A stretch of 64,000 nt of DNA from Bradyrhizobium sp. CCBAU 051011. Lineage in GTDB: Bacteria > Pseudomonadota > Alphaproteobacteria > Rhizobiales > Xanthobacteraceae. The DNA is taken from NCBI RefSeq assembly GCF_009930815.1, contig NZ_CP022222.1, forward strand, positions 3,762,501 to 3,826,500, written 5' to 3'. The notes under the pieces are model-generated. The model saw nothing but the letters and a program-made list of their open reading frames with translations, was not told the DNA's origin and made no database searches. The position numbers and the translations under genes are program-made. Below are positions 8,513 through 31,665 of this stretch, one piece after another. Numbering within the stretch: the first letter of the stretch is position 1; each line of letters opens with the position of its first letter.

Positions 8513-9526
8513 TCAGCCGATCTCGATCGCCACCTTCCCGAAATGCGCGCCGCTCTCCATATGAGCAAACGCCTGTTTCGCCTGGTCGAACGTAAAGGTC
8601 CTGTCGACCACCGGCTTCATGCGACTTGTCGCGATGCCATCCACCATCGCCTGGAGGTCTTCGACCGATCCGACGGTGACACCCTGCAGCCGCTGCTGCT
8701 GCATGACCATCAACGGCAACCGCGAGTCGGACGACGGCGGCCCGGCGAGCACGCCGATGAAGGCGATGGTGCCGCCGATCCTGGTCGCCCGGATCGATTC
8801 GTTCAGCGTACCGACCCCGCCTACCTCCACGACGAGGTCGACGCCGTGGCCGCTCCACTCGCGGGCTTTCTTTCCCCAGTCGGGCGTCGCCTTGTAGTTC
8901 AAAGTGAAGTCTGCGCCGAGCGTCTTCAAACGCTCGATCTTGGCGTCGCTGGAGGAAGTTGCGATGACACGCGCGCCGCACATTTTGGCAAACTGAATGG
9001 CGAAGAGGGATACCCCGCCGGTGCCCTGTGTCAGAACGAGCTGACCGGGTCTTATCCCGCCGAGCTTGACGACCGCGCTCCAGGCCGTGACGCCGGCGCA
9101 GGGGAGAGCGGCGGCTTCGATGTCGCTGAGATGCTCCGGCGTTCTGACCAGCGCATGCTTCGGAAAGATCCGATACTGCGTGAGGACGCCGTCCACCGAG
9201 CCGCCGAGTGCAGCGCGCATCTTGGCTTCGCTCGGTTCGCCGCTGATCCAGCTTTCGAAGAAGCTGCCGATGACGCGGTCACCGGGCGCGAATTCCCGCA
9301 CGCCCGGGCCGACCTGCTCGACGACGCCGGCACCGTCTGATAGCGGCACAAGCGGAAATTTCTGGCGCGAGCCATAGCCGCCCTTGACGGTGATGAGATC
9401 GCGATAGTTCAGCGTTGCCGCTTTGATCCGGACGAGCACCTGGCCTTCGCCGGGCTCAGGCACAGGCTTGTCGACGAGGGCAAGTCCATCGATTCCGTTC
9501 GGTCCCTGCAGCTCATAGCACTTCAA
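8513..9526 (-). CDS. MDR-family NAD(P)-dependent oxidoreductase (quinone oxidoreductase/ADH-like)
   Basis: A 337-residue medium-chain dehydrogenase/reductase with a GroES-like N-terminal half ('VLVRIKAATLNYRDL', 'LSDGAGVVEQVG') and a Rossmann half ('GTGGVSLFAIQFAKMCGARV'). The 'NYRDL' motif stands where zinc-dependent ADHs keep their catalytic Cys, so this is a zinc-free quinone- or enone-reductase-type member. I choose the TTG complementary to 9524-9526 (LKCYELQGPN) because an AAGGAGA site lies seven bases upstream and homologues begin with this sequence. The frame continues upstream by 57 codons without any site. It is the last gene of the catabolic block. Confidence 0.85.
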   Translation of the reverse strand: MKCYELQGPNGIDGLALVDKPVPEPGEGQVLVRIKAATLNYRDLITVKGGYGSRQKFPLVPLSDGAGVVEQVGPGVREFAPGDRVIGSFFESWISGEPSEAKMRAALGGSVDGVLTQYRIFPKHALVRTPEHLSDIEAAALPCAGVTAWSAVVKLGGIRPGQLVLTQGTGGVSLFAIQFAKMCGARVIATSSSDAKIERLKTLGADFTLNYKATPDWGKKAREWSGHGVDLVVEVGGVGTLNESIRATRIGGTIAFIGVLAGPPSSDSRLPLMVMQQQRLQGVTVGSVEDLQAMVDGIATSRMKPVVDRTFTFDQAKQAFAHMESGAHFGKVAIEIG

Positions 9527-9599
9527 CGGAAATCTCCTTCGGCACGCTCCAGTAAGCGCAATATTGCCGCAAATGTTCCGGTTCCGCCAAGCCAGCGCG

Positions 9600-10226
9600 T
9601 CAGAATCGCGCAGCCATCTCGGCCAGCCGGCGATGCGCAGCTTCGCGTGCGGTGCGGATCGGCTCGGCTGGCCCGGTGGTCGGTCCGATCGGCACAAAGC
9701 GCACGTCGCTGACGCCGATGAAGCGCAGCGCCTCGCGCAGGTATGGCGTCGCCATGTCGATGCGGCCGCGATTCATGCCGGTGACGAAGTCGCTGCCGCT
9801 GGCAAGGATGACGACCGTCGGCCGGTCCTTGAACAGCGGCAGATACCCTTGCGCCGGATCGTAGCGGAACGCCAGCCCGGGCTGCGTGATGACGTCGATC
9901 CATTGTTTCAGCTTGTAGGGAATACCAAAATTCCACATCGGCGTCGAAATCAGCACGCGATCGGCAAGCGCGAAGCGGATCGCGATGCGCTCGGCGACCG
10001 CAAAGGCATCGCGCTGCGAATCCGTGAAAGGCCGCCCGTTGATGCGGGCATATTTGGCCTCCAGGACATAACCCTCGAATTCCGGCAGGTGATCGCGCCA
10101 CAGGTTCATCGCGTCGAGGTCCCAGTCCGGCCGTGCCTGGCGGAAGCGGTCGATAAAGATCCGCGCACCGGCGGTGGATTCCGAGTCCGCGCGCGGCGAG
10201 CAGCTCAGGTGAAAGAGTTTTGGCAT
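9600..10226 (-). CDS. FMN-dependent NAD(P)H:quinone reductase / azoreductase-like flavoprotein
   Basis: A 208-residue flavodoxin-fold protein starting MPKLFHLSCSPRADSESTAG. The early 'SCSPR..S.S' loop binds FMN phosphate, 'TPMWNFGIPYKLKQWIDV' is the AzoR/NQO motif that cups the isoalloxazine ring, and 'ASGSDF' is the second FMN loop. Family members reduce quinones or azo bonds by two-electron hydride transfer from NAD(P)H, which protects cells handling aromatic catabolites. It starts 13 bases after the upstream fusion gene ends, in line with co-transcription. Confidence 0.85.
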   Translation of the reverse strand: MPKLFHLSCSPRADSESTAGARIFIDRFRQARPDWDLDAMNLWRDHLPEFEGYVLEAKYARINGRPFTDSQRDAFAVAERIAIRFALADRVLISTPMWNFGIPYKLKQWIDVITQPGLAFRYDPAQGYLPLFKDRPTVVILASGSDFVTGMNRGRIDMATPYLREALRFIGVSDVRFVPIGPTTGPAEPIRTAREAAHRRLAEMAARF

Positions 10227-10239
10227 GGCCGGGGCCCGC

Positions 10240-11817
10240 TCATCCCAATCCCCTGATGACCGCATCGGCGTTGGTGACGACGGCGACGTTCTGCATGGCG
10301 AAGTTAATCGAGGCGCTGTGCCATTCCGCATTCATGGTCGAGCAGCAGTCTTCGGGCACGATCATGAAATAGCCCTTGTCCGCGCCGGTGCGGGCGGTGT
10401 GCTCGATCGACATGTTGGTCCAGGCGCCGGTGTTGATGATCATGTCGCGGCCGGTCGCCTTGAGGATGGTCTCCAGGCGGGTGCCTTCCCAGGCGCTCAT
10501 CCGCATCTTCTCGACGATAAAATCGCCGGCGCGCGGCTCAAGCCCCGGAACGGGAGCCGCGCCCCAGCTTCCGCGCACCATCGCGCCGCTGTCGACCAGT
10601 CCCTCGAATAGTGGCGCATTGAGTGTAACGCCGGGGGCGCCCGGCTCGACGATGAACCAGACATGGATGATGACAACGCCGCGGGCGCGTGCCGCCTCGG
10701 AAAGGCGGCGGACATTGTCGATCACGCGCTGCTGGCGCGCGTGGCCAGGCGAGCCGGAATCCGCGAATGCGCCGCCTTCCATGATGACGTCATTCTGCAG
10801 ATCCTGGATGATCATGGCGCAGCGACGCGGATCGAGTTGCATGTCGCCGCCAGTTAGCTGAGGAGGCGCGGGCGAAGCAGAGCTGGTGTCAGGACCGCTC
10901 GAAGCCCGGCCGCTCATATAAGGTTCATGGCGCGGCCCGGCTTTAACCGGGATCGCATAGACCGAGTGTGTCGCGGTCAGATAGAGCGTGCGAAAATCAG
11001 GCCCGCCCCAGGCGAGATTGGCGACGAGTTCGGGCACGCGTACCTTGCCGAGCAATTCGCCTGATGGCGAATAGACCCAGACGCCGCCTGGCGCGGTGAC
11101 CCAGATATTGCCACGCTGATCGCACTTCATGCCATCGGGCAGGCCGGGTTCGAGCTCGGAACGGATGCCGCTGGCGAAGACGCGTGCATTGGACAGCGAG
11201 CCATCGGCTTCGACGTCGAAGGTGCGGATCAGTGCCTGCACGGTGTCGTTGACGTAAAGCAGGCGTTCATCGGGTGAGAAGCAGAGGCCGTTTGGCTGGT
11301 CGAACAGATGGCGGTCGACCACGAGTTTTGGCGGGCCGCCGCCGGGCGGCACGCGAAAAACGCCCTGGAAGCCGAGCTGGCGCGGCCGCTCGACGCCGTA
11401 GACCGGCATGCGGCCGTACCAGGGATCGCTGAAATAGATCGCACCACTCGAATGGACGCAGACGTCGTTCGGGCTGTTGAGTTCCTGGTTCTCGAAATGC
11501 GAGGCAATCACCTCGCGCCTTCCGTCGGGACGTTCGCGGATCAAGGATGAAGTCGCATGCTCGCAGACGATCAGATTGAGCTCGGCATCGTAGGTCATGC
11601 CGTTGCATTTGTTCGCGGGACGCTTGACCTCGACGACGCCGCGCTTGGCGTCCCATCGCCGGCGCACATCGCCGGGCATATCCGAAAACAAGAGATAATG
11701 ATGCGTTGGATGCCAGATCGGTCCTTCCGTAAAATCAAAGCCGGTGCCGACCTGGCCAACGGGGGCATAGGGGTCGATCAGAGTCTCGAACTCGGGGCGC
11801 AGCGTGACGTGCGTCAT
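10240..11817 (-). CDS. SMP-30/gluconolactonase-like domain fused to isochorismatase-like hydrolase domain
   Basis: A 525-residue fusion. Residues 1-300 are a six-bladed SMP-30/gluconolactonase propeller with the expected metal ligands: Glu31 in 'TEGP', Asn117 in 'SPNDV', Asn190 in 'YVNDT' and Asp228 in 'LPDGM'. Residues 301-325 are a Ser/Ala/Pro linker. Residues 326-525 are an isochorismatase-like hydrolase with Asp339 ('IIQDLQND') and Lys437 ('VEKMRMSAW') of the usual Asp-Lys-Cys triad. The nucleophilic Cys position, normally in 'TNVCVE', is Ser470 here ('TNMSIEHTAR'). The propeller would hydrolyse a lactone; the second domain may hydrolyse an amide slowly through Ser, or only bind ligand. 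An internal ATG at residue 326 could allow separate expression of the second domain. Confidence 0.9.
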   Translation of the reverse strand: MTHVTLRPEFETLIDPYAPVGQVGTGFDFTEGPIWHPTHHYLLFSDMPGDVRRRWDAKRGVVEVKRPANKCNGMTYDAELNLIVCEHATSSLIRERPDGRREVIASHFENQELNSPNDVCVHSSGAIYFSDPWYGRMPVYGVERPRQLGFQGVFRVPPGGGPPKLVVDRHLFDQPNGLCFSPDERLLYVNDTVQALIRTFDVEADGSLSNARVFASGIRSELEPGLPDGMKCDQRGNIWVTAPGGVWVYSPSGELLGKVRVPELVANLAWGGPDFRTLYLTATHSVYAIPVKAGPRHEPYMSGRASSGPDTSSASPAPPQLTGGDMQLDPRRCAMIIQDLQNDVIMEGGAFADSGSPGHARQQRVIDNVRRLSEAARARGVVIIHVWFIVEPGAPGVTLNAPLFEGLVDSGAMVRGSWGAAPVPGLEPRAGDFIVEKMRMSAWEGTRLETILKATGRDMIINTGAWTNMSIEHTARTGADKGYFMIVPEDCCSTMNAEWHSASINFAMQNVAVVTNADAVIRGLG

Positions 11818-11837
11818 CGGTCCGTCCTTCTCTCGCG

Positions 11838-12686
11838 TCAGGCCGGGAACCAGTTGCGCTGGGGCAGGCTCTGCACCACGGGGCCGGGCACCTGATCGTG
11901 CAGCCGGCCGACCACATTGCCGCCTTCGATTTTTGCCGGGCGGTCGTGGACCGGGAGCAGATAGCGCGAATTGCTCAGGAGTTTTTTGATTGCCGCCTTC
12001 TCCGCGCGCTTGCTGGTGCCGTGATTGCCCGTGGTGCGCGGCTCGGCATCATGAATCTCGTGGAAGGGCGTGACGATCTGGTCATTAAAATCGTAGATCA
12101 CGTCGCCGCAGATGGTGGCGATGCCGTCAGCGGTATGAACGTGGATGTTCATGGAGCCTTCGGTGTGGGCGTTGGCGGCCTCGCAATAGATGCCCGGCAT
12201 CAGTTCGACCGGACCGGTCACTTCGAGATCGAGGAAGCGCAGCGCGCTCTTGGTGTGCAAACGGTCGATCAGGTGCTTGATATCGGGCGCCGGATACTGC
12301 GGGTGCATCAGGCCGGAGACGGAATATTCCAGCTCCTTGCGATTGAGCACCACCGTCGTGTTCATCGGAAACAAATCGTCCTTGCCGGCGTGGTCGATAT
12401 GTAGATGAGTGTGGCAGACGTAGCGGACGTCGCCCATGCGCACGCCGTGGCGCGCGAGCTGATTCTCGATCATGTTCTCGTGGAATTGCAGGCCGCGCAT
12501 GCCCAGCGTTTCCATGATCTGGTTGGAGCGATAGCCGGTGTCGACCACGACCGGATAGGGGCCGCCGACGATCAGAAAGCCGAGCGTCAGGACGCGGCGG
12601 GTACGGCCGCAATCGCGGCCGAGCACGAGAAAGCTCGATTCCAGTTCGATATCCCCGTAGTCGAGGATCTTGATCTCAAGCGGCAT
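11838..12686 (-). CDS. Metallo-beta-lactamase-fold hydrolase, AHL-lactonase-like
   Basis: A 282-residue protein with the dinuclear zinc motif HTHLHIDH (HxHxDH), a later His in 'EAANAHTEGS', the bridging Asp in 'CGDVIYD' and a terminal His ('PVHDRP'). The layout fits the AttM/AiiA-like lactonase branch of the superfamily. In this operon, beside an SMP-30 lactonase and an amidohydrolase, a role in opening a lactone or ring ester from the catabolised substrate is more likely than quorum quenching, though the latter cannot be excluded. The GGGAGGGAAC site before the ATG at 12684-12686 is strong. Confidence 0.88.
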   Translation of the reverse strand: MPLEIKILDYGDIELESSFLVLGRDCGRTRRVLTLGFLIVGGPYPVVVDTGYRSNQIMETLGMRGLQFHENMIENQLARHGVRMGDVRYVCHTHLHIDHAGKDDLFPMNTTVVLNRKELEYSVSGLMHPQYPAPDIKHLIDRLHTKSALRFLDLEVTGPVELMPGIYCEAANAHTEGSMNIHVHTADGIATICGDVIYDFNDQIVTPFHEIHDAEPRTTGNHGTSKRAEKAAIKKLLSNSRYLLPVHDRPAKIEGGNVVGRLHDQVPGPVVQSLPQRNWFPA

Positions 12687-12728
12687 ATGTTCCCTCCCAT
12701 ATTCTTTTAATTGTCGATACGCGCGCCG

Positions 12729-13619
12729 TCATCGGTCTAGCCGGTAGACGCGCATGGCAGTCGTTCGCAGAACGGCGTCGCGCTGATCGGCGGCAAGCGA
12801 GGCCGTGGCGGCGAGAAAGGCGTCAATCAACTCGCGATAGGTCGTCCAGAGTTTTTCGATCGGAAAATTGGAGCCGAACAGGCAGCGATCGGCGCCGAAG
12901 ATCGCCACCGTATCGGTGAGAATGGAGGCGATGTGCACGGGATCGTTGCGATGGATGAAGGTGCCGAGGCCGGAGAGTTTTGAGACGACGTTCGGGCAGG
13001 CGGCGAGCCGGGTCATGCCGTCAGGCCACGCCGATCGGCCCTGCGGCGAGAGGTCTTCCAGCATGCCGGCGTGCTGCAGGATGAAGGTGACATCGGGACA
13101 GGATTCGGCGAGGCCCGCAGCATCCGCCATCTGCGGCGCGAACACCTGCAGGTCGAAGCTGAAGCCATAATCGGGGAGCCGCGCGATATTGCGCCGGATT
13201 TTTGGATCGGCGCAGAGGTCCGGTCGGGCCGCAAAGCGATAGAGCGGGTTTTCGTGCCAGTGCAATTGCATGCGCACGCCGCGCACTAACGGATAGTGCG
13301 CGAGACGATCGAGCTGCGGGCGGACATCGTCGACGTTGAAATCGGCGTAGGAGACGATCGCGTGTGGCCAGCCATGATCCTTCGCGGTTTCCTGCACCCA
13401 GGCGGTTTCGTCCTCGAAGCGGTCGTTGGCCCAGTTGGTCTGCACATAGACCGAGCGGGTCACGCCGGAGCCCGCGAGATCATCGAGATATTCCTGGATC
13501 GGATAGTCGCGCCGGATCGGCTCGTAGGGGCCGAAGATGCGCGGCTGCATCGGACCAACAAGCCAGGGCAGGTCAGCCTGACGCCAGATATGATGATGGG
13601 CATCGACGATGTCGGTCAC
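12729..13619 (-). CDS. Amidohydrolase-family TIM-barrel hydrolase (PDC-hydrolase-like)
   Basis: A 296-residue amidohydrolase_2 protein. It begins MTDIVDAHHHIW, the metal-binding HxH at the end of strand 1, and ends with 'FGSNFPIEKLW', the Asn/Asp region at strand 8. It resembles 2-pyrone-4,6-dicarboxylate hydrolases and L-fuconolactone hydrolases, which open cyclic esters. The start ATG overlaps the stop of the VWA gene (ATGA), so it is translationally coupled to the Mo-hydroxylase maturation genes. This ties ring opening to hydroxylation. Confidence 0.87.
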   Translation of the reverse strand: MTDIVDAHHHIWRQADLPWLVGPMQPRIFGPYEPIRRDYPIQEYLDDLAGSGVTRSVYVQTNWANDRFEDETAWVQETAKDHGWPHAIVSYADFNVDDVRPQLDRLAHYPLVRGVRMQLHWHENPLYRFAARPDLCADPKIRRNIARLPDYGFSFDLQVFAPQMADAAGLAESCPDVTFILQHAGMLEDLSPQGRSAWPDGMTRLAACPNVVSKLSGLGTFIHRNDPVHIASILTDTVAIFGADRCLFGSNFPIEKLWTTYRELIDAFLAATASLAADQRDAVLRTTAMRVYRLDR

Positions 13620-14734
13620 GCGGCCTTCCTTTGTCCAAGCGAGAGAACGTGTGAAACGATCGCGGCTGATGATCCGCCGTCGACCAGATCATCCACGAAA
13701 TGGCGGATTGCGATCAGCGCTTCGGTCTGCGGTTGAAAACCGGGACCTGTGGCGAGCGGCGTCAGCCAGCTCAGCCGCCAGGCGCGCTGCGACAATTTTG
13801 CGACGGCATCGCGCAACGCAGAGGGATCGCCGCGCTCGAGGCCGTCGGACAGGATGACGACCGCGGCGCCGCGCGCATAGCCGCCGAACCGGGGCACCGC
13901 CAGGAACGCCTGCAGCGCATCGCCGATCCGGGTGCCGCCGTCCCAGTCGCTGACTAGATGGGCGGCGGCCGACAGCGCCTGCTCGCGCCGCTTGAGGCGG
14001 AGCGCGCGGCTGACACGGGTGAGCCGGGTGCCGAAGGTGAACACCTCGACATTGGGAGCCGCATGTACCACGGCATGCGCAAGCTTCATATTGTCGTCGG
14101 TCCGCCCCTTCATTGAACCGGAAACGTCGATCAGCAACAAAACCTTGCGCGGGCGGGTGCGCCGTTTCAGCCGGCCGAGCCGCAGCACCTCGCCGTCATT
14201 GCGCACGCTCTCACGCAAGGTGCGGCGGAGATCAGCCCAAGGGCCGCGCCGGGCGCGCATGCGCCGGTGGCCGCGCCGCCGGGGCAGACGCGTGGGCGCC
14301 TCGCGTGCAAGCCGGCGCAGGGCATCGCCGGTTTGGCTTGGCGCGAAGCGGCGTTCGACCAGCGCCTCGGCGCGGGCTGCAACAAGCCCGGATTCATTGG
14401 CCTCGTCGGCCAGCAATGTTTCGTCTTGGCCGCGGCCTTCCTCCTGCAGACGAACCACTTCTTCATCTTCCGCGCCGGCATGATCCACCGCCTCGCTGCC
14501 GAGGAAATGAAGGTCGAACAGCCGATCGTAGGTCGCGCGGCGCTCGGGAGGCGGGGCGAGTGTCGCCAGCCCGGCCTGCCGGATCGATTCCATGCTGCGC
14601 GGGCCGAGAAGCTCGATCGCTGCGAGGAACGCCGTTGTCTGTTCCGGCGCGACCGCGAAGCCGTTGACGCGCAGCAACGCGACAAAGGACACGAAGACGC
14701 CGGCGGCGCGCGGTAATCGAAATTCGTCGCTCAC
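13616..14734 (-). CDS. coxE: VWA-domain protein, CoxE-like
   Basis: A 372-residue protein with an Arg-rich middle and a C-terminal von Willebrand A domain. The MIDAS motif is 'LLIDVSGSMKG' (DxSxS), followed by 'GGTRIGDAL' and 'ILSDGLERGD'. CoxE with CoxD matures the molybdenum centre of form I CO dehydrogenase; related pairs accompany other Mo hydroxylases. I take the GTG complementary to 14732-14734, which overlaps the TGA of the MoxR gene (GTGA); the longer frame upstream is a shadow of that gene. The position between the ATPase and the amidohydrolase gene supports one operon. Confidence 0.87.
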   Translation of the reverse strand: MSDEFRLPRAAGVFVSFVALLRVNGFAVAPEQTTAFLAAIELLGPRSMESIRQAGLATLAPPPERRATYDRLFDLHFLGSEAVDHAGAEDEEVVRLQEEGRGQDETLLADEANESGLVAARAEALVERRFAPSQTGDALRRLAREAPTRLPRRRGHRRMRARRGPWADLRRTLRESVRNDGEVLRLGRLKRRTRPRKVLLLIDVSGSMKGRTDDNMKLAHAVVHAAPNVEVFTFGTRLTRVSRALRLKRREQALSAAAHLVSDWDGGTRIGDALQAFLAVPRFGGYARGAAVVILSDGLERGDPSALRDAVAKLSQRAWRLSWLTPLATGPGFQPQTEALIAIRHFVDDLVDGGSSAAIVSHVLSLGQRKAA

Positions 14735-15612
14735 GCGGCAGCCTCCGCAATCAGGGCGTCGAGCCGGCCAGAGATAAAGGTGAGATCCTCCTCGTCCTTC
14801 AGCGCGACGCCAATCGAGCGCTTGAAGGCGTCCGGCCAGCGCGCGCCGCGCGCGTGCAACAGCGTGGCCGCTTCCGCCCAGTCCACGGCTTCCGCAATGC
14901 CCGGCGCCTTGCTCAGCGGCTCGCGCCGCAGCTTGCCGACGGCGGCGACGACGGCACGCGCCGTGGATTCGGCAACGCTCGATGCCCGCATCATCACAAT
15001 GCGCGCCTCGCGCTCGGCGGTGGGATAATCGATCCAGTGATAGACGCAGCGGCGACGCAACGCTTCGTGCAGGTCGCGAGTGCGGTTTGAGGTCAGCACG
15101 ACGACGGGGCGCTCGGCGGCGCGGACCGTGCCGCGTTCGGGGATCGAAATCTGGAAGTCGGAGAGGAATTCGAGCAGGAAGGCCTCGAATTCCTGGTCGG
15201 CGCGGTCGATTTCGTCGATCAGCAGCACGGTGGAGTCGGGCGCGCGCAACGCGGCGAGCATCGGCCGCTCGATCAGAAAAGTCTCGCCGTAGATGTCGAT
15301 GCTTTCCTCGCCGGCCTGGCGGATCGCCAGCATCTGGCGCGGATAGTTCCACTCGTAGAGCGCGGCTGATGCGTCAATACCTTCATAGCATTGCAGGCGG
15401 ATCAGGCGGCGGCCGAGCACGGCGGCGATCGCCTTGGCGGCTTCGGTCTTGCCGACGCCGGGCGCGCCTTCGAGCAGCAGCGGCTTGCCGAGCGCCAGCC
15501 CTAGATAGGCCGCCGTGGCCAAACCGTCGTCGGCGAGGTAATACGCCGTGCGCAAGGCTCGTTCGAGCGCCTCCGGACTATCGATGCCGACGATGTTGCC
15601 GCGTACCACCAT
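14731..15612 (-). CDS. coxD: MoxR-type AAA+ ATPase, CoxD-like
   Basis: A 293-residue AAA+ ATPase. Walker A is GAPGVGKTEAAK, Walker B is LLIDEIDRAD, sensor 1 is 'LTSNRTRDL', and an arginine-rich segment 'LRRRCVYHWIDYP' follows, all typical of MoxR. With its coupled VWA partner it should act as a chaperone that remodels or inserts sulfur into the Mo centre of the hydroxylase encoded just upstream. It begins nine bases after the Mo-subunit gene ends. CoxD specialisation is inferred from context, since MoxR proteins serve many clients. Confidence 0.88.
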   Translation of the reverse strand: MVVRGNIVGIDSPEALERALRTAYYLADDGLATAAYLGLALGKPLLLEGAPGVGKTEAAKAIAAVLGRRLIRLQCYEGIDASAALYEWNYPRQMLAIRQAGEESIDIYGETFLIERPMLAALRAPDSTVLLIDEIDRADQEFEAFLLEFLSDFQISIPERGTVRAAERPVVVLTSNRTRDLHEALRRRCVYHWIDYPTAEREARIVMMRASSVAESTARAVVAAVGKLRREPLSKAPGIAEAVDWAEAATLLHARGARWPDAFKRSIGVALKDEEDLTFISGRLDALIAEAAA

Positions 15613-23376: not shown

Positions 23377-24210
23377 TTATCGCGCGCCGATCGCCTTGAA
23401 TTTACGAACCTGTTCCGTGAGCGCCCGCTCCACCGGCAGGCGCTCCATCGAGGAGGCACCGTAGAAGCCGTGGCACTTGCGCGTGTGTTTCATGATGAAG
23501 TCGGCATCATCTGGCTCGGCGATGGGGCCGCCATGGGCCAGCACGAGTATGTCCGGATTGACGCTGAGCGCCGCCGATGCCCAGGTGTCGATCTGTTCCG
23601 GACAGTCTTCGAGCTTCGGCGCGGTGTGCGCCCCGATCGCGCCGCCGGTGGTCAGGCCGAGATGGCAGACGATGATGTCGGCGCCCGCGATCGCCATCGC
23701 GGTCGCCTGGCTCTCGCTGAACACATAGGGTGTGGTCAGCATGTCCTTGTCGCGCGCCTTGGCGATCATGTCGATCTCCAGCGCGTACGACATGCCGGTC
23801 TCTTCGAGATTGGCGCGAAACACGCCGTCAATCAGCCCGACGGTCGGAAAGTTCTGCACGCCGGCAAAGCCCAGCGCCTTGAGCTGATCGAGGAAGGTAT
23901 CCATGTCGCGGAACGGGTCCGTGCCGTTGACGCCGGCCAGCACTGGCGTCCTGGTCACGACCGGGAGCACCTCGCCGGCCATCTCCACCACGATGGCATT
24001 GGCGTCGCCGTAAGGCATCAGGCCGGCGAGAGAGCCGCGTCCGGCCATGCGGTAGCGACCGGAATTGTAGATGACGATCAGGTCGACGCCGCCGGCCTCC
24101 TCGCATTTGGCTGATAGCCCCGTGCCGGCGCCGCCGCCGACGATCGGCTCGCCCTTGGCGGCCATGGTGCGGAACTTCTTCAGGATGGCTGAACGTTCGA
24201 ATTTCGCCAT
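23377..24210 (-). CDS. TIM-barrel 'phosphoenolpyruvate hydrolase family' protein (Tm-1 C-terminal-like)
   Basis: A 277-residue protein of the PEP_hydrolase (PF09370-like) family, starting [20 protein letters not shown], with '[20 protein letters not shown]', '[15 protein letters not shown]', '[13 protein letters not shown]' and '[12 protein letters not shown]'. The fold is a phosphate-binding TIM barrel. No reaction is firmly assigned to these proteins. In plants the tomato Tm-1 protein carries a UPF0261 domain followed by such a barrel. Here the barrel is a separate gene, two bases after the gene that carries the UPF0261 domain. Its start is set by the ATG at 24208-24210. Confidence 0.85.
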
Positions 24211-24212
24211 GG

Positions 24213-26450
24213 TCACCTCGCGACTTTCCGACGTGTCCCCGGGCGTCCGACCAGAGGGCGGAGCGCGTTGACGATGGCGGATGCAAATTCGGGCTCGTTG
24301 ATGTGGCGCTTGATGCGGATGAGCTGGCGGTTGCCGGTCTGGCGTACGCTGCGTTCCAGCGCGGTAAACAGCGCCGCATCCGCCTCCGGATCCCAGAACG
24401 GCTGGCCCGGTGCATCGAGTGCGGAGACGCCGCCTTCGGGGAGAAAGAAACGTACCGGCCCGTCCATGCGGTTGAGCTTGTCGCCGATCCAGCGCCCCAT
24501 CCGGTCGTTCTCTTCCGGCGTGGTGCGCATCAAGGTCACCTGCGGATTGTGAACGTGGAATTTGCGCTGGCGATAGCGATCGGGAATGGTGTCGGGCCCG
24601 CCGAAATTGACCATGTCGAGCGCGCCGACCGAGCCGATGAAGGGCAGGCGGCTGCGGATGATCGCACCAAAGCGGTCGTCGGTGGCGGGGAATACGCCGC
24701 CCATCAGGAGATCGCAGACTTCCGTCGTCGTGAGATCGACGACGGCGGCGAGCATTCCGGAATCGACCAGCTTCTCCATCGAGCGGCCGCCGACGCCGGT
24801 GGCGTGGAAGACGAGGCATTCGAAATCGTTGCGCAGGTCGGCCGCGATCTTCTGCACGGCCGGCGTCGTCACGCCGAACATGGTGATGCCGATAGCCGGC
24901 AGATCGGCCTGCGCCCTGCGCTCATTCGCGGCCTGATTGTCGAGACGCGCCTTCACCATGCCGGCGATGGCGTTGGCGCCGTTGGCGAGAACGGCGCGCG
25001 AGATCGAGTTGAGGCCCTGCACGTCGGTGACCGAATACATCATGGTGATATCGGCAGGGCCTACATAGGGTCCGACATCTCCCGATGCGACCGACGAGAT
25101 GATGAGCTTTGGCACGCCGACGGGAAGGGCGCGCATGCCTGGCGCGACCAGCGAGGCGCCGCCGGAGCCGCCCGCTGAAATAATGCCGGCGACATTGCCC
25201 TGACGGCGCAGCCAGTTGGCGAAGGCATCCGCCATCGCGGAGACCGACGCGCCGCGATCGGCGCCGAACACGCTCGACCCGCCACGCCCATGGTTGAGCG
25301 CGATTTCCTGCGCGGAGACGTCGCAGGTGGAGAGCTTGCCGCTGGTGGAGACGTCGACCAGGCGCGTCCGCAAGCCCTGACCGGCGATCACGTCGCGGAT
25401 AAAGCGTAGCTCTTCGCCCTTGGTATCGAGCGTTCCGACGACGAGGACGACGGGTGGTCCGGACGCGCTTGGTACGATGGCGCCGGCCTGGCGCCTTTGC
25501 CGGGTGGCGTCTTCGATGCGCGTAACGCCTGCCGAAAGCGTGCGCGCTGCGCCCTCGATGCGCGCAATGGGGGCCGGCTGCGACCAACGTGTCGGCAAGG
25601 TGGGATTGGAGATATAGATCCGGACTGGCGCTGTGCTTGACGCGCGCGGCGGCACGGGACGCGCCTTGGCCTCGGCGCTGGCATCGGCGGCGTCGATATC
25701 CGAGTCCGGCTCGGCATGGACTCCAACGACACCGACGCCAAGCAGGCGTTGCTGCAATTCGCGGTCGGCCGCCAGGCGCGCGGAGTCGATGATGCGGTTG
25801 ACGCGGCCATTGACCATGATGGCCACATTTTTGGAGATCGCGGTGGCGACGCCGATATTCTGCTCGATCACCAGTACCGACATGTCGCCGTCTTCGCCGA
25901 GGCGCACCAGCATGTCCTCGACCTGGGCGACGATGACAGGCGCCAGCCCTTCGGTCGGCTCGTCCATGATGAGAAGCTGCGGATTGGTGAGAAGCGCGCG
26001 AGAGATCGCCAGCATCTGCTGCTCGCCGCCGGAGAGCTGGCCGCCGCCATGGTCCTTGCGCTCGGCAAGGCGGGGAAATGTTTCGTAGATGCGATCGATG
26101 GTCCAGGCGCCGCGGCGCATGCTGGCTGCCAATCGCAAGTGTTCGTCGACGCTGAGCGACCGCCACAACCGACGTCCCTGCGGCACATAGCCGACGCCCG
26201 CTTGCGCGATCCGCGCCGGGCTGAGGCGGGTGATGTCCTCGCCGCGGACGCGGACCGAACCGCCGCTCGCCCGCAGCAGACCCATGATGGTCTTGCACAG
26301 CGTGGTCTTGCCCATGCCGTTACGGCCGACCACCGAGAACACGCCGGAATCCAGCGTCAGGTCGACGCCTTGCAGCGCATGCGAATGGCCGTAATAGACA
26401 TCAAGGCCCCTGACTTCGAGCGCGGGTGCGGAGCGGCGGACCTCACTCAT
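24213..26450 (-). CDS. LivF-type ABC ATPase fused to Tm-1-like/UPF0261 ATP-binding domain
   Basis: A 745-residue fusion. Residues about 8-240 are a branched-chain-amino-acid-type ABC ATPase: '[16 protein letters not shown]', '[17 protein letters not shown]', '[13 protein letters not shown]'. Residues about 240-330 are a poorly conserved Ala/Arg/Pro linker. Residues about 335-735 are a complete UPF0261/Tm-1-like domain: '[14 protein letters not shown]', '[13 protein letters not shown]', '[13 protein letters not shown]', '[19 protein letters not shown]'. The first half pairs with LivG to drive uptake. The second has a described ATP-binding fold but no settled activity. Fusing it to the transporter motor suggests that transport is coupled to modification or sensing of the substrate. 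The start overlaps livG by eight bases. Confidence 0.92.
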
Positions 26451-27225
26451 GGCCGGCCCCCAGATAGAGTTCCTGCACCTCCGGGTCGGCCTCGATCTCG
26501 TGCGGCAGACCCTCCTTGAAGACGCGGCCGTTGTGCATCATCGTGACGCTTTCGACGACGCGCAGCGCGACATCCATGTCGTGCTCGATGATGATGTAGC
26601 CGATGTGGGCGGGCAGCGACGTCAGGATTTCGATCAGCTCGCGCCGCTCGGTGGGGGAGAGGCCCGCGGCCGGTTCGTCGAACAGGATGAAACGCGGGGC
26701 GCCGGCGAGTGCGAGCGCGATCTCGAGCTGCCGCTGCTGGCCGTGCGCGAGTTCCGCGACGCGCTGCTCCCTGACCGCTGTCAGGTGCACGGCCTGGATC
26801 AGGGCTTCAGTCGCATGCATGAGGGCGTCGTTCGTGCCCGGACGCAGTACGGAAAATCGTCCGCGGGAAACGCCGCGGCAGGCTAGATAGACATTGTCCC
26901 GCACCGTGAGGCCGGGGAATAGCGCTGAAATCTGGTAGGTGCGGCGGAGGCCGCGCCTGATCCGCTCATAGGGCGGGAAGTGGGTAATGTCCTCGCCGAA
27001 GAAGCGGATGGTGCCGGATGACGGCGGAAAATCACCGGTCACGCAATTGAACAGCGTGGTCTTGCCGGCGCCGTTGGAGCCGAGCACGGCGCGGCGTTCG
27101 CCCGGGCGAACCGTGATGGTGACGTCGGTCAGTGCCGCGAGCGCGCCGAACAGCCGCGTCACGCCGCGCAGTTCCAGCGCAGCGCCGGCAGCCACCGATG
27201 AAAAGCGTGGCGCGGCGTTATCCAT
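26443..27225 (-). CDS. livG: Branched-chain amino acid-type ABC transporter ATP-binding protein (LivG)
   Basis: A 260-residue ATPase: Walker A 'LGSNGAGKTTLFNCVTG', signature 'LAHGQQRQLEIALALA', Walker B 'FILFDEPAAGLSP', then the H-loop 'IIIEHDMDV'. The signature begins AHGQQ rather than SGGQ, which is normal for LivG. It overlaps livM upstream and the LivF fusion downstream by eight bases each, so the ATPases are made in step. HAAT-family systems also carry aromatic acids, amides and urea, which fits a catabolic operon. Confidence 0.93.
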   Translation of the reverse strand: MDNAAPRFSSVAAGAALELRGVTRLFGALAALTDVTITVRPGERRAVLGSNGAGKTTLFNCVTGDFPPSSGTIRFFGEDITHFPPYERIRRGLRRTYQISALFPGLTVRDNVYLACRGVSRGRFSVLRPGTNDALMHATEALIQAVHLTAVREQRVAELAHGQQRQLEIALALAGAPRFILFDEPAAGLSPTERRELIEILTSLPAHIGYIIIEHDMDVALRVVESVTMMHNGRVFKEGLPHEIEADPEVQELYLGAGHE

Positions 27226-28303
27226 GCGGCTTCCCTCCGCCCGGACGAGCGTCAGTGGCAGCGCGGCGGCGCCAGCGCCAGCGCTCCCACAGTCCGATCA
27301 CGCCATCCGACGACCAGAACACGATGGCGAGGAAGCCGAGCCCGATCAGCAGCCGGAAGCGGTTGCCGTCGAGACCGAACTTGACCAGCAGATCGAGCGC
27401 GAAGGTGCGCAGGATGACGAAGATGAAGGCGCCGATATAGGGGCCGACGGGACGGCTGATGCCGCCGACCACGGCAATAATCAGGATGTCGATGCAGGCG
27501 CCGACGCTGACCGAGCCGGGCGAGATCTGCCGGTAGTTCCAGACCTGCAGGACGCCGCCGAGTGCGGCGATGAAGGCCGCGAACGCGTAGGCTGCCACGC
27601 GGTGCGCGTTGACATTGAAACCGAGCGCCGCCATGCGGCGGGGATTGTCGCGCACGCCCTGCAGCGCGAGGCCGAACGGCGCGAGCGAGACATATTGAAC
27701 GGCGAAATAGCAGAGCGCCGCGACGACGAGCGTGACGTAGTAGAAGGGGATGTCGGAACGCCAGTCGACGCCCCAGAATTTCGGCGTCGCGACCGTGTTG
27801 ATGCCGGTATGGCCGCCGAAGATCGCCCAGTTCTGGTTGGTGAAATAGTAGAAGGCCGCGCCGATCGCGAGGGTGATCATGATGGTGTAGATGCCCTCGG
27901 TGCGCACCGCGAGCGCGCCGCCGAGCGTGCCGAAGGCGGTCGCGAGCACCAGCGCCATCGGCGTTGCCAGCCACCACGGCCAACCGAGGCTGATATTGGT
28001 GTTGGCGCTCATGCCGAACACCGCGACCATATAGGCGGCAAAGCCGGCGACGGTGAGCTGCATCAGACTGACCATGCCGCCATAGCCAGCGAGGAACATC
28101 AGGCTGAGGGCGATAGTCCCGAGGATCATCGTCGTGGCGAAGATCTCGATCAGGAAGAACCCGTTGGCGATGAACGGCATGATCAGCAGGATCACGCCGA
28201 CCAGCCAGACAGTCGGCTTGTTGAATTCCGGCCATGCCAGCAAGGCTGCGCGCGCCGCTGCCGGCTGACTGATCTGAGGTTGGGCGCCCTGGATCAGCGA
28301 CAT
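27218..28303 (-). CDS. livM: Branched-chain amino acid-type ABC transporter permease (LivM)
   Basis: A 361-residue LivM-type permease with about ten predicted hydrophobic helices. The conserved cytoplasmic loop 'GLALQGVRDNPRRMAALGFN' is the coupling loop to the ATPases. It starts one base after the livH stop (28305) and overlaps livG. The C-terminal tail is Arg-rich. Substrate specificity is not readable from the permease. Confidence 0.93.
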   Translation of the reverse strand: MSLIQGAQPQISQPAAARAALLAWPEFNKPTVWLVGVILLIMPFIANGFFLIEIFATTMILGTIALSLMFLAGYGGMVSLMQLTVAGFAAYMVAVFGMSANTNISLGWPWWLATPMALVLATAFGTLGGALAVRTEGIYTIMITLAIGAAFYYFTNQNWAIFGGHTGINTVATPKFWGVDWRSDIPFYYVTLVVAALCYFAVQYVSLAPFGLALQGVRDNPRRMAALGFNVNAHRVAAYAFAAFIAALGGVLQVWNYRQISPGSVSVGACIDILIIAVVGGISRPVGPYIGAFIFVILRTFALDLLVKFGLDGNRFRLLIGLGFLAIVFWSSDGVIGLWERWRWRRRAATDARPGGGKPHG

Positions 28304-28304
28304 G

Positions 28305-29315
28305 TCAGCGCCTCGCCAGAAGGCCCTGCGGCCGCAGCGCCAGCACCAGCACCATGATGAGGAAGGTCACTACGATCGCGTAGGTCGGGATGTAGACGGA
28401 GCCAAGCTGTTCGGCGAGACCGATGATGACGGCGCCCAGCGCAGCTCCCGGGATTGATCCCATGCCCCCGACGATCACGACGACGAGCGACGCCAGCAGA
28501 AAGCGGGTGTCCTCGCCCGGCGAGATCGACTGGAACGTGCCGCCGACGACGCCCGCGATGCCGGCAAGCCCGGCGCCCAGCGCGAACACGGCCACGAAGA
28601 CGAGCTGGATCGGCACGCCGGTGGCGGCGAGCATGTCGCGGTCATCGACACCGGCGCGCACCATCATGCCGACGCGGGTCCGGTTGAGCGCCAGCCACAT
28701 CGCGATGCCGATCACGACGGCCGCGACGAAGATCACGAGCCGCACCAGCGGATAGCGCAGATACACCGCCTCGCCGGAGGATCTGACCGCGGTGACCAGC
28801 GGCAATTCGACCGGGCCGACCAGCCAGCTCGGGGTCTGGATCTGATAGAAATCGCCGCCGAATGCCCACAGCATCAGATCGGCAAACACGATCGAGAGCC
28901 CGATCGTGACCATGGTCTGGCGCAGATCCTGCCCTTCCATGCGGCGGAAGACCACGATTTGCAGCACGATGCCGACCAGGGCGACACCGAGAAACGCGAT
29001 GATGAAGCCGAGGATCCAGGAGCCGGTCCAGGCGCTGATGGCGTAACCGATGTAGCCGCCGAACAGATAGAGCGAGCCATGCGCCAGATTGACGTTGCGC
29101 ATCAGCCCGAAGATCAGCGTGAAGCCGCTCGCGACCAGGAAGTAGAGGCCGCCGAGCGTGATGCCGTTGAAGACGGCGTTGAGAAAGACCCGCTTCCTGC
29201 CGAATGCCTCTTCGAGGCCGGGTGGCCAGACGGCAAGGATTAGCCACAACAGCACCGCGACCGCGACAAGTGCGATCAGCGCCCATGCCGGATGGCGTTC
29301 GATGAATCTTGTCAC
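28305..29315 (-). CDS. livH: Branched-chain amino acid-type ABC transporter permease (LivH)
   Basis: A LivH-type permease of 336 residues from the GTG complementary to 29313-29315 (VTRFIERHPAW), with 'LIFGLMRNVNLAHGSLYLFGGYIGY' as the family hallmark and 'IAMWLALNRTRVGMMVRAGVDD' as the coupling loop. An alternative ATG at 29385-29387 would add 24 mostly basic residues. I prefer the GTG because the membrane helix then follows about ten residues in, as in relatives, but neither has a strong ribosome site. The gene ends just before livM. Confidence 0.88.
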   Translation of the reverse strand: MTRFIERHPAWALIALVAVAVLLWLILAVWPPGLEEAFGRKRVFLNAVFNGITLGGLYFLVASGFTLIFGLMRNVNLAHGSLYLFGGYIGYAISAWTGSWILGFIIAFLGVALVGIVLQIVVFRRMEGQDLRQTMVTIGLSIVFADLMLWAFGGDFYQIQTPSWLVGPVELPLVTAVRSSGEAVYLRYPLVRLVIFVAAVVIGIAMWLALNRTRVGMMVRAGVDDRDMLAATGVPIQLVFVAVFALGAGLAGIAGVVGGTFQSISPGEDTRFLLASLVVVIVGGMGSIPGAALGAVIIGLAEQLGSVYIPTYAIVVTFLIMVLVLALRPQGLLARR

Positions 29316-29445
29316 GGTAGCAGCGCGGCCGTCACCATGCCGTCCTCCCAGACGCCGCGGCCGTTTCGGCTCGCGTTTTGGGACCATCCTAATGGGGCCG
29401 CGGACCTTGCACTTGATTGTCAGTATCTTTTCGCGCGCTCTGCGC

Positions 29446-30273
29446 TCAGGGGCGCAACACTTTGGCGGCGCGGCGGTATTCCGTCGGCGCCATTCCGACA
29501 TTGGCGGCGAAGAAACGGGTGAAACCGCTTTGGGAGGAGAAGCCGAGATCGAAACCGATATCGGCGATCGGCACCTCGGTCGCGACGAGCGCGTCCAGCG
29601 CCTGTTCCATGATCAGTGTATTGAGATAGAGGTTCGGGGTGACGCCGGTCTGGGTGCGGAACAGCCGGTAGAAGTGCGGGCGCGACAGCCCGGACGCCCG
29701 CGCGATCGAATCCAGCTCGATCTCCGCGCCCGGGCTTTCGGACATCAGCTTGATGGATTTGCGGACGCGAAAGTCGGTGATGGCGCTGGCGGTGCGCGTC
29801 TCCTGCACCGGCTCGGAACTCTGCCAGCTCTCGTCATAGCAACCGTCGATCAACTGCCTGAGTTCGCAATCCAGACTGCTCAGCGACGGTGCGCCGCAGA
29901 CCAGCGCCGCGGTTCGCCTGATATGCCTGTCGAGGGCGACCGTGCGCTTGAAGCAGGTGTGGCCGAACCGCAGGCCGTGAGCCCGCGCCGCGTCGGGCGC
30001 GAACCATTCGGCGTTGACGTAGAGCACGAAGAAGATCGCGCCGTTCTCCACATCGGTCGGGACAAAATTGTGTGGTTCCCAGGGGTTGATGGCAACAATG
30101 GAATCTTCTGCGAGAAGCCATCGCTCATCGCACACATCAATGCGCGCCGGCGTTCCACCGACATGAAAGATCAGGTGCCCTTCACGATGCGCGTGCATGT
30201 TGAAGGGGCGGTTCAACTGATAGACCGTCGCGCGACCGAACCGGCCGTGGAAGACGGCGAGAGCCTTGCTCAT
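29446..30273 (-). CDS. AraC-family transcriptional regulator
   Basis: A 275-residue regulator. An N-terminal cupin-like sensor ('FNMHAHREGHLIFHVGG', 'WEPHNFVP') is followed by a C-terminal double helix-turn-helix ('ELDSIARASGLSRPHFYRLF', 'VPIADIGFDLGFSSQSGFTRFF'). The second helix-turn-helix is textbook AraC/XylS. It lies on the same strand between the binding-protein gene and livHMGF, so it is probably autoregulated and controls the operon in response to the imported compound or a derivative. About 130 bases separate it from livH, room for an internal promoter. Confidence 0.9.
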   Translation of the reverse strand: MSKALAVFHGRFGRATVYQLNRPFNMHAHREGHLIFHVGGTPARIDVCDERWLLAEDSIVAINPWEPHNFVPTDVENGAIFFVLYVNAEWFAPDAARAHGLRFGHTCFKRTVALDRHIRRTAALVCGAPSLSSLDCELRQLIDGCYDESWQSSEPVQETRTASAITDFRVRKSIKLMSESPGAEIELDSIARASGLSRPHFYRLFRTQTGVTPNLYLNTLIMEQALDALVATEVPIADIGFDLGFSSQSGFTRFFAANVGMAPTEYRRAAKVLRP

Positions 30274-30370
30274 GCCTTCCCTCCCGCGGGATGTTCTTGT
30301 CTTTTCAACCAGCGTTCAACATCCGCCGCGAGAATGCAAGGGAAGATCATGTCCAGGTTCGGGCCCGAGT

Positions 30371-30394
30371 GGACCCCGGCGCCTGACCGGGGCC
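30371..30394 (-). terminator. Possible terminator or attenuator after the livK-type gene
   Basis: An inverted repeat GGACCCCGG - CCGGGGCCC with a seven-base loop lies just downstream of the binding-protein gene (minus strand). There is no clear T-run, so it may slow or partly stop transcription. Such hairpins after liv and other binding-protein genes commonly let the binding protein be made in excess over the permeases. Confidence 0.45.
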
Positions 30395-30414
30395 CGTTCG
30401 CAAATGCGAAGAAC

Positions 30415-31665
30415 TCAGTACTTCTTGCACTCCGGAACCGTTCGGCTCGGCAACCCGATCTTGGAGAACACCGCGGGGTCGTAGCCGAGCGTCTGGTTGA
30501 CGTTCGGGATCACCTTCACGACCTTGCTGAACAAGGCGCCCTTGCCGTCATCCACCACTTCGGTGACGAAATTGGTGCCGATGGCCTGGCGGTTGGAGTC
30601 GAGCTTGATCTTGCCGTTGGGCGCGTCGAGCTCGATCTTGGCCAGCGCTTCTCTGTATTTCGCCTGGTTGTTGCTGAGATCGCCGTTGACCTGACGCAGC
30701 GCGAGGATCAGCGCCGCCGTCGAGTTGTAGTAGTTGGTGGCAAGCAGTGACGGGCTTGGGAACCGCTTGTTCGGTGGGAACGCGTCCTGATAGGCCTTCA
30801 CGAACTTCTGCCAACCCGGATCTTCCCAGGTATCGGCCTGGCCGCTCGCGGCAATGGTGCCGATCAGCGCATTCTTGGCGTTGCCCTTGGCCGAAAGAAT
30901 GGTCTGGTCGACCATGATCGAGCCGCCCATCAGACGAGCCTTGCCGCCGGCCTGCTGGTATTGGTTCAGGAAATTGACGGCGTCGGCGCCGCCGAGGCCG
31001 AGATAGATCGCATCGACATCGTCGGGAAGAGCAGCAATGACGGAGGCGAAATCCTTCGTTCCGAGCGGCACCCATTGCCGGTTCGTGACCTGTCCGCCGG
31101 CGCCGCAGAACTCCAGCACAAGTCCGAACACCTGGGTGTAGATGAACGAATAGTCGTCGCCGACCGTCGCTATTTTTTTATAGCCTTTGGTTTCATAGGC
31201 GTATTTGCCGAGGCCGACCTGCCATTGGGCGCCGTCCATGTTGTAGCGGTAGAAGTTCGGCGCCGGGTCGACATAAGTCGTCTCCTGTGCGCCGGAAGCG
31301 GCGTTGATGAAGGTTAGCTCCGGACGCGTCTTGGCAAAGTTCTTGACCGCGATGCCTTCGTCGCCGGACAGGGGTGAAAGCAGGATCTGGACCTTGTCCT
31401 GTTCGATCAGCTTGCGTACGGCACGAACCGCGGAATCGGGCGTGGCATCCGTCGAGGCGATGATGAATTCGATTTCCTTGTCGCCGACCTTCTTGCCGAG
31501 CGTGTTGATCGCCGTCTGATGTCCGCGTATGCCGTCCTCGCCGAGCACGGTATAGGTACCTTCGAGTGTCGCGGTAACGCCGACCTTGATTTTCTCTTGG
31601 GCTATGGCGGCGCCGGAAAGCAACAGGCTGCTCAGCGCGACCAGTCCCGCACAGCTTTTAAACAT
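30415..31665 (-). CDS. ABC transporter periplasmic substrate-binding protein (LivK/HAAT type)
   Basis: A 416-residue type I periplasmic binding protein with a Sec signal peptide cut after 'SGAAIAQ' and the family's opening 'KIKVGVTATLEGTYTVLGEDG'. It is longer than LivK (about 370) and resembles the amide/urea and aromatic-acid binding branch. A strong GGGAGGGG site precedes the ATG. It is the first gene of the block, so its promoter should lie in the 325 bases to its right. The ligand is the key unknown for the whole cluster. Confidence 0.92.
   Translation of the reverse strand: MFKSCAGLVALSSLLLSGAAIAQEKIKVGVTATLEGTYTVLGEDGIRGHQTAINTLGKKVGDKEIEFIIASTDATPDSAVRAVRKLIEQDKVQILLSPLSGDEGIAVKNFAKTRPELTFINAASGAQETTYVDPAPNFYRYNMDGAQWQVGLGKYAYETKGYKKIATVGDDYSFIYTQVFGLVLEFCGAGGQVTNRQWVPLGTKDFASVIAALPDDVDAIYLGLGGADAVNFLNQYQQAGGKARLMGGSIMVDQTILSAKGNAKNALIGTIAASGQADTWEDPGWQKFVKAYQDAFPPNKRFPSPSLLATNYYNSTAALILALRQVNGDLSNNQAKYREALAKIELDAPNGKIKLDSNRQAIGTNFVTEVVDDGKGALFSKVVKVIPNVNQTLGYDPAVFSKIGLPSRTVPECKKY

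Follow-up and report, generated by a model that had tools for sequence, protein, structure and literature searches.

A conserved gene cluster of Bradyrhizobium combines an importer, a long flotillin and a split molybdenum hydroxylase with a conserved C-terminal peptide

Comparison of related sequences strongly supports the view that a run of genes in Bradyrhizobium sp. CCBAU 051011, whose order is conserved across the genus (though not in every member) and in 11 further families, would act as one functional unit. We give about an even chance to the more specific reading that it is a single inherited catabolic unit in which a Mo hydroxylase is tethered by a C-terminal tail to a scaffold or to the membrane. 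The window analyzed is a 64,000-nt stretch of NZ_CP022222.1 (3,762,501-3,826,500), and the numbering below refers to positions within it. The run is an uninterrupted series of genes, all on the minus strand, that spans 23 kb (8513-31665); the initial annotation had named its enzyme classes, which ORF and Pfam calls bear out, but had counted 19 genes where our recount gives 21. In related Mo-type loci the median gaps between neighbors from LivH to the SMP-30 lactonase gene (SGL) are -8 to +26 bases (n = 5-86, gene starts chosen by script), and gaps fall within -60 to 150 bases in 63 of 86 cases for LivH-LivM, 78 of 86 for SRP2-SRP1 and in nearly all pairs elsewhere. The spacing between the AraC-family regulator gene and LivH is looser (median 122.5 bases; 150 bases or less in 36/66), and an internal promoter is therefore possible at this point.

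Pfam identifies a complete HAAT/LIV ABC transporter set, comprising a periplasmic substrate-binding protein (SBP, PF13458; 30415-31665), LivH-type (28305-29387, probable start ATG 29387) and LivM-type (27218-28303) permeases, a LivG-type ATPase (26443-27225) and LivF, with the AraC-family regulator encoded at 29446-30273. The SBP relatives in the PDB, of which 4zpj is nearest by sequence, were searched for a clue to the substrate and gave no clear ligand. LivF is fused to UPF0261, the counterpart of the N-terminal part of Tm-1, in a protein of 745 residues (24213-26450), and the UPF0261 portion, with both its N and C domains, matches Tm-1 structures in the PDB (3wry, E 3.9e-97). The next gene encodes the Tm-1 partner, a PEP-hydrolase-like TIM barrel of 277 residues (23377-24210, Pfam). 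The two families had been recognized from the start, to which we add that UPF0261 is covalently joined to the ATPase. LivF and UPF0261 share one ORF in 125 of the 127 loci checked; both exceptions are the same genome present twice (G046, which is also L078), in which they are separate ORFs, so the fusion is not indispensable. As LivF carries UPF0261 and the partner is encoded by the next gene, uptake would be physically joined to the first intracellular step. A paralogous locus has the importer permeases, TIM barrel, SRPBCC and UPF0261 and gave no flotillin match, and this handling step can thus run without a scaffold.

The flotillin gene (20455-23352) encodes 965 residues, with PF01145 (SPFH/Band 7) and PF15975 (Flot) above cut-off, and Pfam together with a weak monomer model (pLDDT 66) indicates an N-terminal membrane helix, SPFH, a mostly helical region of about 600 residues and Flot. 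It is followed by two genes for SRPBCC proteins, SRP2 (20008-20445) and SRP1 (19563-20006), which match PF10604 only (SRP2 also PF03364, weakly) with E up to 0.01, the COXG family not being found among their Pfam matches. SRP2 has a helix-grip fold, and the 50 fold matches listed of 1,613 are 7tmu/XoxI-type proteins, PYL receptors and lachrymatory-factor synthase, with CoxG absent among these 50. On both counts we rejected a CoxG-like quinone shuttle.

A sister cluster without Mo genes retains the importer, the LivF::UPF0261 fusion, the flotillin and the SRPBCC pair. In 12 of 14 of its loci SRP1 lies within an ORF of 484-511 residues that also matches an MDR dehydrogenase (checked by Pfam on L138 only). 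Such an arrangement suggests, at the level of sequence, that a fixed core for uptake, scaffolding and carriage accepts exchangeable oxidative enzymes, and the two cluster types, with one core and different oxidases, offer a natural comparison for the function of that core. The flotillin was found in 17 of the 18 class-sample genomes with a full-length fusion, the exception being a 3.4-kb contig, so that it does travel with the SRPBCC genes and the UPF0261 fusion, as it had been proposed to check; it accompanies the Mo genes in the Mo-type cluster but not in the sister cluster. The flotillin is 872-1165 residues long in Mo-type loci vs 558-734 in the sister cluster, a difference that coincides with one tree split and is therefore close to one evolutionary event. 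Among 76 named loci, the flotillin gene as assembled reads as interrupted in two (L031, L036). We placed no weight on database fusions of flotillin with SRPBCC, of flotillin with TIM barrel and of the two Mo halves; the joins in P0246, P0255 and P0063 are garbled and resemble frameshifts, and P0153, P0079 and P0115 are rare variants of ambiguous status. Mo genes adjoin locus L147, at 32% identity.

The Mo hydroxylase had been assigned to the xanthine-dehydrogenase family, and this assignment stands, except that the large subunit is actually encoded by two genes. By Pfam, the FAD subunit (PF00941/PF03450; 18728-19546) and the [2Fe-2S] subunit (Fer2 and Fer2_2, PF00111/PF01799; 18242-18721) have genes of their own. 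The N-terminal half of the large subunit, MoL_N (527 residues; 16647-18230), and the C-terminal half, MoL_C (340 residues; 15622-16644), are in different frames, and MoL_C has its own ATG behind AGGAGG. All 105 loci with both halves are split, a count that includes possible repeats of named genomes (84 pairs remain after dropping 33 locus ids). The split is thus no local frameshift, and together with the MoL_C ribosome-binding site in the window it rules out a pseudogene. The top PDB matches of the halves are 3hrd_A and 3hrd_B, the NdhL and NdhM chains of a split nicotinate dehydrogenase, presumably from Eubacterium barkeri. FGAKGPGE of MoL_C aligns to FGAKGVGE of 3hrd_B, so that the position of the Glu, which we take to be the catalytic residue, is conserved. 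The CoxL model TIGR02416 scored 168.5 and 110.5 bits for the halves vs 991 for whole CoxL, far below cut-off, and no other listed NCBIfam model reached cut-off for either half. Two genes for proteins resembling maturation factors follow, a CoxD/MadB-like AAA ATPase (14731-15612) and a CoxE-like VWA protein (13616-14734, probable start GTG 14734), both from Pfam.

MoL_N ends in a variable Pro/Ala-rich linker and a conserved peptide, mostly RFSSVFGTRRR (codons at 16650-16682), in 105/105 loci and, among the homologs listed, in 107 of 120. The last 11 alignment columns are as conserved as the MoL_N core; the linker is less so. Among 92 full-length tails picked for beginning RFSSV, four to five codons are in use at each of three positions (the first Arg, the first Ser and the Val), synonymous variety that led us to reject a pure ribosome-binding-site constraint on RFSSVFG. 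The Arg codons overlap the Shine-Dalgarno sequence of the next gene, and part of the conservation of Arg-Arg-Arg is therefore at the RNA level; a pure ribosome-binding-site constraint on these residues is weakened by L133 and L137, which retain the three residues though the Shine-Dalgarno stands after the stop. The length of the linker did not correlate with that of the flotillin in 15 loci (Spearman -0.11, p 0.69). An RFSSV at the LivG N-terminus is not conserved, and we rejected the idea that it repeats the tag.

The tail could belong to one catabolic operon and have no relation to the flotillin, aiding instead the assembly of the split halves or maturation by the CoxD/E-like proteins, and its position exactly at the split point, adjoining the partner gene, would suit such a role. 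We think this unlikely: the peptide is absent from the four split relatives found outside the cluster, which terminate at the core in all three cases with 49-52% identity and carry an unrelated extension in the fourth (35-38%), NdhL (425 residues) is likewise tail-less, and a linker of 58-163 residues is tether-like rather than a structural insert. About equally improbable, in our judgment, is that the tail anchors the enzyme directly to the membrane while the flotillin acts independently, for example on the transporter. The basic and aromatic composition of the peptide (RF..VF..RRR) is consistent with an anchor, and in a passage of one report CoxG is proposed to carry the Mo hydroxylase of CO dehydrogenase to the membrane (PMC4240915), but the recurrence of Ser-Ser and Gly at the same positions would be unexpected for a plain anchor.

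Five further genes complete the run, encoding an Amidohydro_2 hydrolase that is fuconolactonase-like below cut-off (12729-13619), a metallo-beta-lactamase-fold hydrolase (11838-12686), an SMP-30 lactonase fused to an isochorismatase-like amidase (10240-11817), a flavodoxin-fold FMN reductase (9600-10226) and an MDR dehydrogenase (ADH; 8513-9526). Lactonase and isochorismatase form one ORF here and in 17/17 loci where both were delimited. The resemblance of the lactamase-fold protein to AHL lactonases and 4-pyridoxolactonase, below cut-offs, might suggest that the unit removes a toxic or signaling lactone or amide instead of supporting growth. This is rather less probable still, as the presence of an importer and a dedicated binding protein speaks for use of the compound, and the conserved block, as judged from the window genes tested across relatives, contains no efflux gene.

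Of 80 named loci, 68 have every gene of the block from LivH to CoxE in the conserved order, and in 11 of the remaining 12 the order is kept as far as the sequence extends. The initial annotation would have been overturned by gene order confined to this strain; the order was instead maintained genus-wide and in 12 loci from 11 other families of the class. The full-length LivF::UPF0261 marker occurs in 46 of 60 same-genus genomes, with one further genome having separate ORFs. The FMN reductase is present in all 17 Bradyrhizobium loci that extend so far (L116-L132) and was seen only in that genus, most distant loci ending before its position. ADH, at the downstream end, is lineage-specific and occurs in 8 of these 17 loci. 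That the neighbors belong to separate pathways and are co-located by chance or lineage inertia is very improbable, for although the ADH end varies and 13/60 same-genus genomes lack the full-length fusion, order is kept at 39-88% protein identity in the 11 other families, and the LivF::UPF0261, lactonase::isochorismatase and SRP1::dehydrogenase fusions link parts of two cluster types. A literature search (open-licence PMC) for the cluster or the fusion returned no match, only a single unrelated review on milk vesicles.

In the reading that we prefer, of one catabolic unit with a tethered Mo enzyme, the importer would take up a small, probably hydrophobic cyclic compound, which LivF::UPF0261 and the TIM barrel would pass from import into its first intracellular handling. 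The two PYL-like-fold SRPBCC proteins may shield or pass on the ligand, the split Mo hydroxylase, matured by the CoxD/E-like pair, would hydroxylate it, and the lactonases and amidases would then open the product. The long flotillin would be the scaffold, with the Mo hydroxylase held to it or to its membrane patch through the peptide at the linker end; in the sister cluster, the SRPBCC-dehydrogenase fusion would take the place of the Mo enzyme. A putative heterocyclic substrate fits the nicotinate-dehydrogenase-like enzyme and the hydrolases. That the flotillin may organize the enzymes is a specific and testable idea because of the conserved Mo-subunit tail and the SRPBCC-oxidoreductase fusion. 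Bacterial microcompartments and encapsulins are loaded via terminal peptides. More tentatively, and we consider it doubtful, the flotillin might form a cage in or on which the RFSSVFGTRRR-type tag docks the Mo hydroxylase, with LivF::UPF0261 handing imported substrate directly to the SRPBCC carriers and flotillin length varying with the enzyme module; the flotillin would then enclose a catabolic pathway at the membrane, and the tag would serve as an address for loading.

As in Tm-1 and Tm-1-like proteins, UPF0261 has a TIM-barrel partner, but it is joined here to the LIV-transporter ATPase and in Tm-1 to the TIM barrel. Our search of open-licence PMC found no account of the bacterial reaction of this pair, for which the covalent tie to an importer ATPase provides a concrete context; a portion of PMC5028733 describes how the two have co-evolved in bacteria. 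As in nicotinate dehydrogenase (3hrd), two polypeptides make up the Mo large subunit, with separate FAD and FeS genes here, whereas NdhL has no C-terminal linker or peptide (its alignment to MoL_N stops at 416 of 425). Nicotinate dehydrogenase acts on nicotinate and has selenium at the Mo; the enzyme here is accompanied by CoxD/E-like genes, a transporter and a flotillin, and its substrate may differ. To our knowledge, the cox cluster of CO dehydrogenase has neither a transporter nor a flotillin. In the excerpt of PMC4240915 considered, AAA and VWA genes of maturation type (CoxD and CoxE) and an SRPBCC neighbor (CoxG) accompany its Mo hydroxylase, as here, but our Mo halves fail the CoxL cut-off and our SRPBCC proteins are PF10604, not COXG. 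The flotillin shares its membrane helix, SPFH, long helical region and Flot with flotillin/YqiK-type SPFH proteins and differs from them in the roughly 600-residue extent of its helical region and its fixed slot within a putative catabolic operon. We know of few bacterial flotillins with defined clients. Human flotillin forms a membrane cage of 44 subunits, according to a section of PMC11260169, and SPFH loci of P. aeruginosa adjoin NfeD or other genes, according to part of PMC13086221; for the flotillin described here, gene order singles out a small set of partners, and one of these carries a conserved peptide amenable to deletion or transfer.

The genome carrying the window is 9.1 Mb in a single contig, and a reading of ORFs and domains between positions 8513 and 31665 identified 21 genes that follow one another on the minus strand without interruption. 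The run begins with genes for a substrate-binding protein (SBP), an AraC regulator, LivH, LivM, LivG and a LivF ATPase fused to UPF0261 (LivF::UPF0261), followed by a PEP-hydrolase-like TIM barrel, a 965-residue flotillin, two SRPBCC proteins (SRP1 and SRP2) and the FAD and FeS subunits. The Mo hydroxylase large subunit comes next as two genes (MoL_N and MoL_C, its N- and C-terminal halves), then CoxD-like and CoxE-like proteins, and the run closes with an amidohydrolase, a lactamase-fold hydrolase, an SMP-30 lactonase::isochorismatase fusion (SGL), an FMN reductase and an MDR dehydrogenase (ADH). From LivH to SGL, neighbouring genes have median intergenic distances of -8 to +26 bases, and the run is presumably co-transcribed. 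The AAA and VWA pair at 13616-15612 has MadB/MadC as its nearest NCBIfam models, with scores below the cut-offs. Around the cluster, MacB/FtsX-type permease genes and an HlyD-type membrane fusion gene lie ~400 bases downstream on the same strand (3948-8104), TRAP transporter genes DctP and DctM lie upstream (36312-38718), two SIS-domain proteins, an amidohydrolase, an amino-acid-kinase-family protein and a putative cyclase are grouped at 46874-53655, and a radical SAM protein matching the lipoyl-synthase N-terminal domain is encoded at 57016-58290.

To examine gene order, loci in named records were retrieved via the TIM-barrel gene, taking the best 80 of 570 matches (77 titled Bradyrhizobium). 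The 14-gene run from LivH to CoxE was complete and ordered in 68 of these 80 loci, and in a further 11 the order was kept as far as the locus extends. The remaining locus, L031, stops early, and its order is only apparently disturbed, because its SRP1 and SRP2 matches coincide. As the query was taken from the cluster, this set says nothing on the share of genomes without it; for that, full-length LivF::UPF0261 was used as a marker, which was present in 46 of 60 same-genus genomes (own genome counted) and absent from 13, and was found in 7 of 40 sampled genomes of other families of the order, with one more cut by a contig end. Outside the genus, the order with Mo genes (Mo-type) was found at 12 loci from 11 other families (L093-L096, L098-L100, L133, L134, L135, L137 and L149, with L135 and L137 from one family), where protein identities were 39-50% for AraC, 46-59% for CoxE and the FAD subunit and 53-88% for the remaining proteins; the lactamase-fold gene is missing from L134. 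The end of the run is more restricted: the FMN reductase was present in all 17 Bradyrhizobium loci extending that far, 8 of which also have ADH, and at no other loci, most distant ones ending earlier. A record titled Frankia sp. RB7 (L057) also has the Bradyrhizobium cluster, with proteins 79-94% identical (MoL_C excluded), and its genome is probably mislabelled.

A sister type, found at 14 loci from 11 families (L136, L138-L147 and L150-L152), keeps the core with the Mo genes missing from it, in the order LivH, LivM, SBP, LivG, LivF::UPF0261, TIM barrel, flotillin, SRP2, SRP1; the order is rearranged in L146, and a TIM-barrel match is missing there from L150 and L151 (L101 and L148 were too short to be typed). 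In 12 of the 14, SRP1 is part of a 484-511-residue ORF that also matches MDR dehydrogenase, as confirmed by Pfam for L138; of the other two, L146 is unfused and L152 is cut by a contig end. When LivG, LivF::UPF0261, the TIM barrel and SRP2 of 31 loci (18 Mo-type and, with L146 omitted, 13 of the 14 Mo-less) were placed in an unrooted tree, the Mo-less loci formed a single clade with support of 1.000. The constant part is therefore the importer, UPF0261, flotillin and SRPBCC pair, mostly with the TIM barrel, and the oxidative part is exchanged between types. FAA hydrolase, alpha/beta hydrolase and amidohydrolase genes come after the core in L138, and in L147 a Mo hydroxylase operon (4836-8167, ~32% identity) adjoins it on the opposite strand.

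Full-length LivF::UPF0261 occurred in 18 of 385 genomes sampled across the class, and among 398 genomes drawn from the phylum every instance fell within one class, the cluster's own. One genome, G046 (L078 and L102), encodes LivF and UPF0261 in separate ORFs that lie ~690 bases farther apart than usual. Flotillin (E <= 1e-90) accompanied the fusion in 17 of the 18 genomes, the exception (G438) being a contig of 3,359 bases that stops just past LivF::UPF0261. Flotillin matches were found in 31 of the 385 genomes, so the family is broader than the cluster, and it may extend past the class, as two close relatives (P0245 and P0307) are in records named Gammaproteobacteria and Arenicellales. The protein measures 872-1165 residues in 15 Mo-type loci outside the named set, whereas it has 558-734 in the 14 Mo-less loci, a contrast that rests on a single split of the tree; across 76 named loci its length goes up to 975 residues (917 in L080), and its frame is broken, as assembled, in L031 and L036.

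MoL_N (527 residues) ends with its stop at 16647; MoL_C, in a different frame and preceded by AGGAGG, begins at 16644. The split was present in all 105 loci containing both halves (84 pairs once loci possibly duplicating named genomes were removed). Past its core, MoL_N carries a linker of 58-163 residues, with a Pro and Ala content of 28-57% in 18 representatives, and closes with a terminal peptide that reads RFSSVFGTRRR in 87 of the 105 loci and as a close variant in the other 18. Among the best 120 of 5,089 database homologs, 107 end in this peptide type; of the other 13, three are fused to MoL_C, one ends RFSSVVGRSR and the majority of the rest are apparently truncated or frameshifted. Across the 18 representatives, the last 11 residues are as conserved as the core (mean column identity 0.82 against 0.80), and the linker is less so (0.51). 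In most loci the Arg codons of the peptide coincide with the ribosome-binding site of the downstream gene, yet L133 and L137, where the site falls past the stop, keep the three Arg; the residues ahead of them use many synonymous codons. In split relatives at 49-52% identity (L153, L154 and L155) MoL_N ends at the core, and there were no flotillin or SRPBCC matches in the 14.0, 4.6 and 19.9 kb examined, the 4.6-kb locus being weak evidence. A more distant split relative, L156 (35-38%), has some residues beyond the core, ending EEEVA, and likewise no flotillin or SRPBCC match in 19.9 kb.

We propose that the cluster would take up, handle, oxidise and ring-open one class of compounds, its putative substrate, as a system kept at the membrane, much as the initial annotation suggested. 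The sharpest prediction to come from this reading is that the MoL_N peptide would bind either flotillin itself or a partner bound to flotillin. The SRP2 structure model (pLDDT 93) has 7tmu and XoxI-type proteins as its nearest folds, then (best 50 of 1,613 matches) plant abscisic-acid receptors, whose closed pocket binds a small terpenoid, and the model fits a ligand carrier, with the direction of transfer presumptive. Paralogous loci in two same-genus relatives (L109 and L110) have LivH, LivM, TIM barrel, SRPBCC and UPF0261 together, with no flotillin or Mo gene matches at these loci; SRPBCC and the UPF0261 pair thus go together even without the scaffold.

Co-evolution of UPF0261 and TIM-barrel genes is described in a study of Tm-1-like proteins (PMC5028733), in the text of which the term "ABC transporter" was not found. 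Among open-licence PMC articles none joined any two of Tm-1-like ATP-binding, phosphoenolpyruvate/PEP hydrolase and flotillin; of UPF0261, Tm-1-like, ABC transporter, xanthine dehydrogenase and flotillin, three co-occurred only in an apparently unrelated milk-vesicle review, and one paper naming both flotillin and Bradyrhizobium mentions flotillin just once, in a proteomic context. MoL_N and MoL_C find their best PDB matches in the large and the medium Mo subunit, respectively, of nicotinate dehydrogenase, whose catalytic Glu position is preserved here. By sequence profile the flotillin aligns with human flotillins across the SPFH part, and its monomer model (pLDDT only 66) shows, besides an SPFH domain, a membrane helix at residues 3-33 and long helices within 218-825. 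The human complex is described as a cage of 44 subunits that measures 32 nm across and 22 nm in height (PMC11260169), and by analogy the cluster flotillin may build a taller one.
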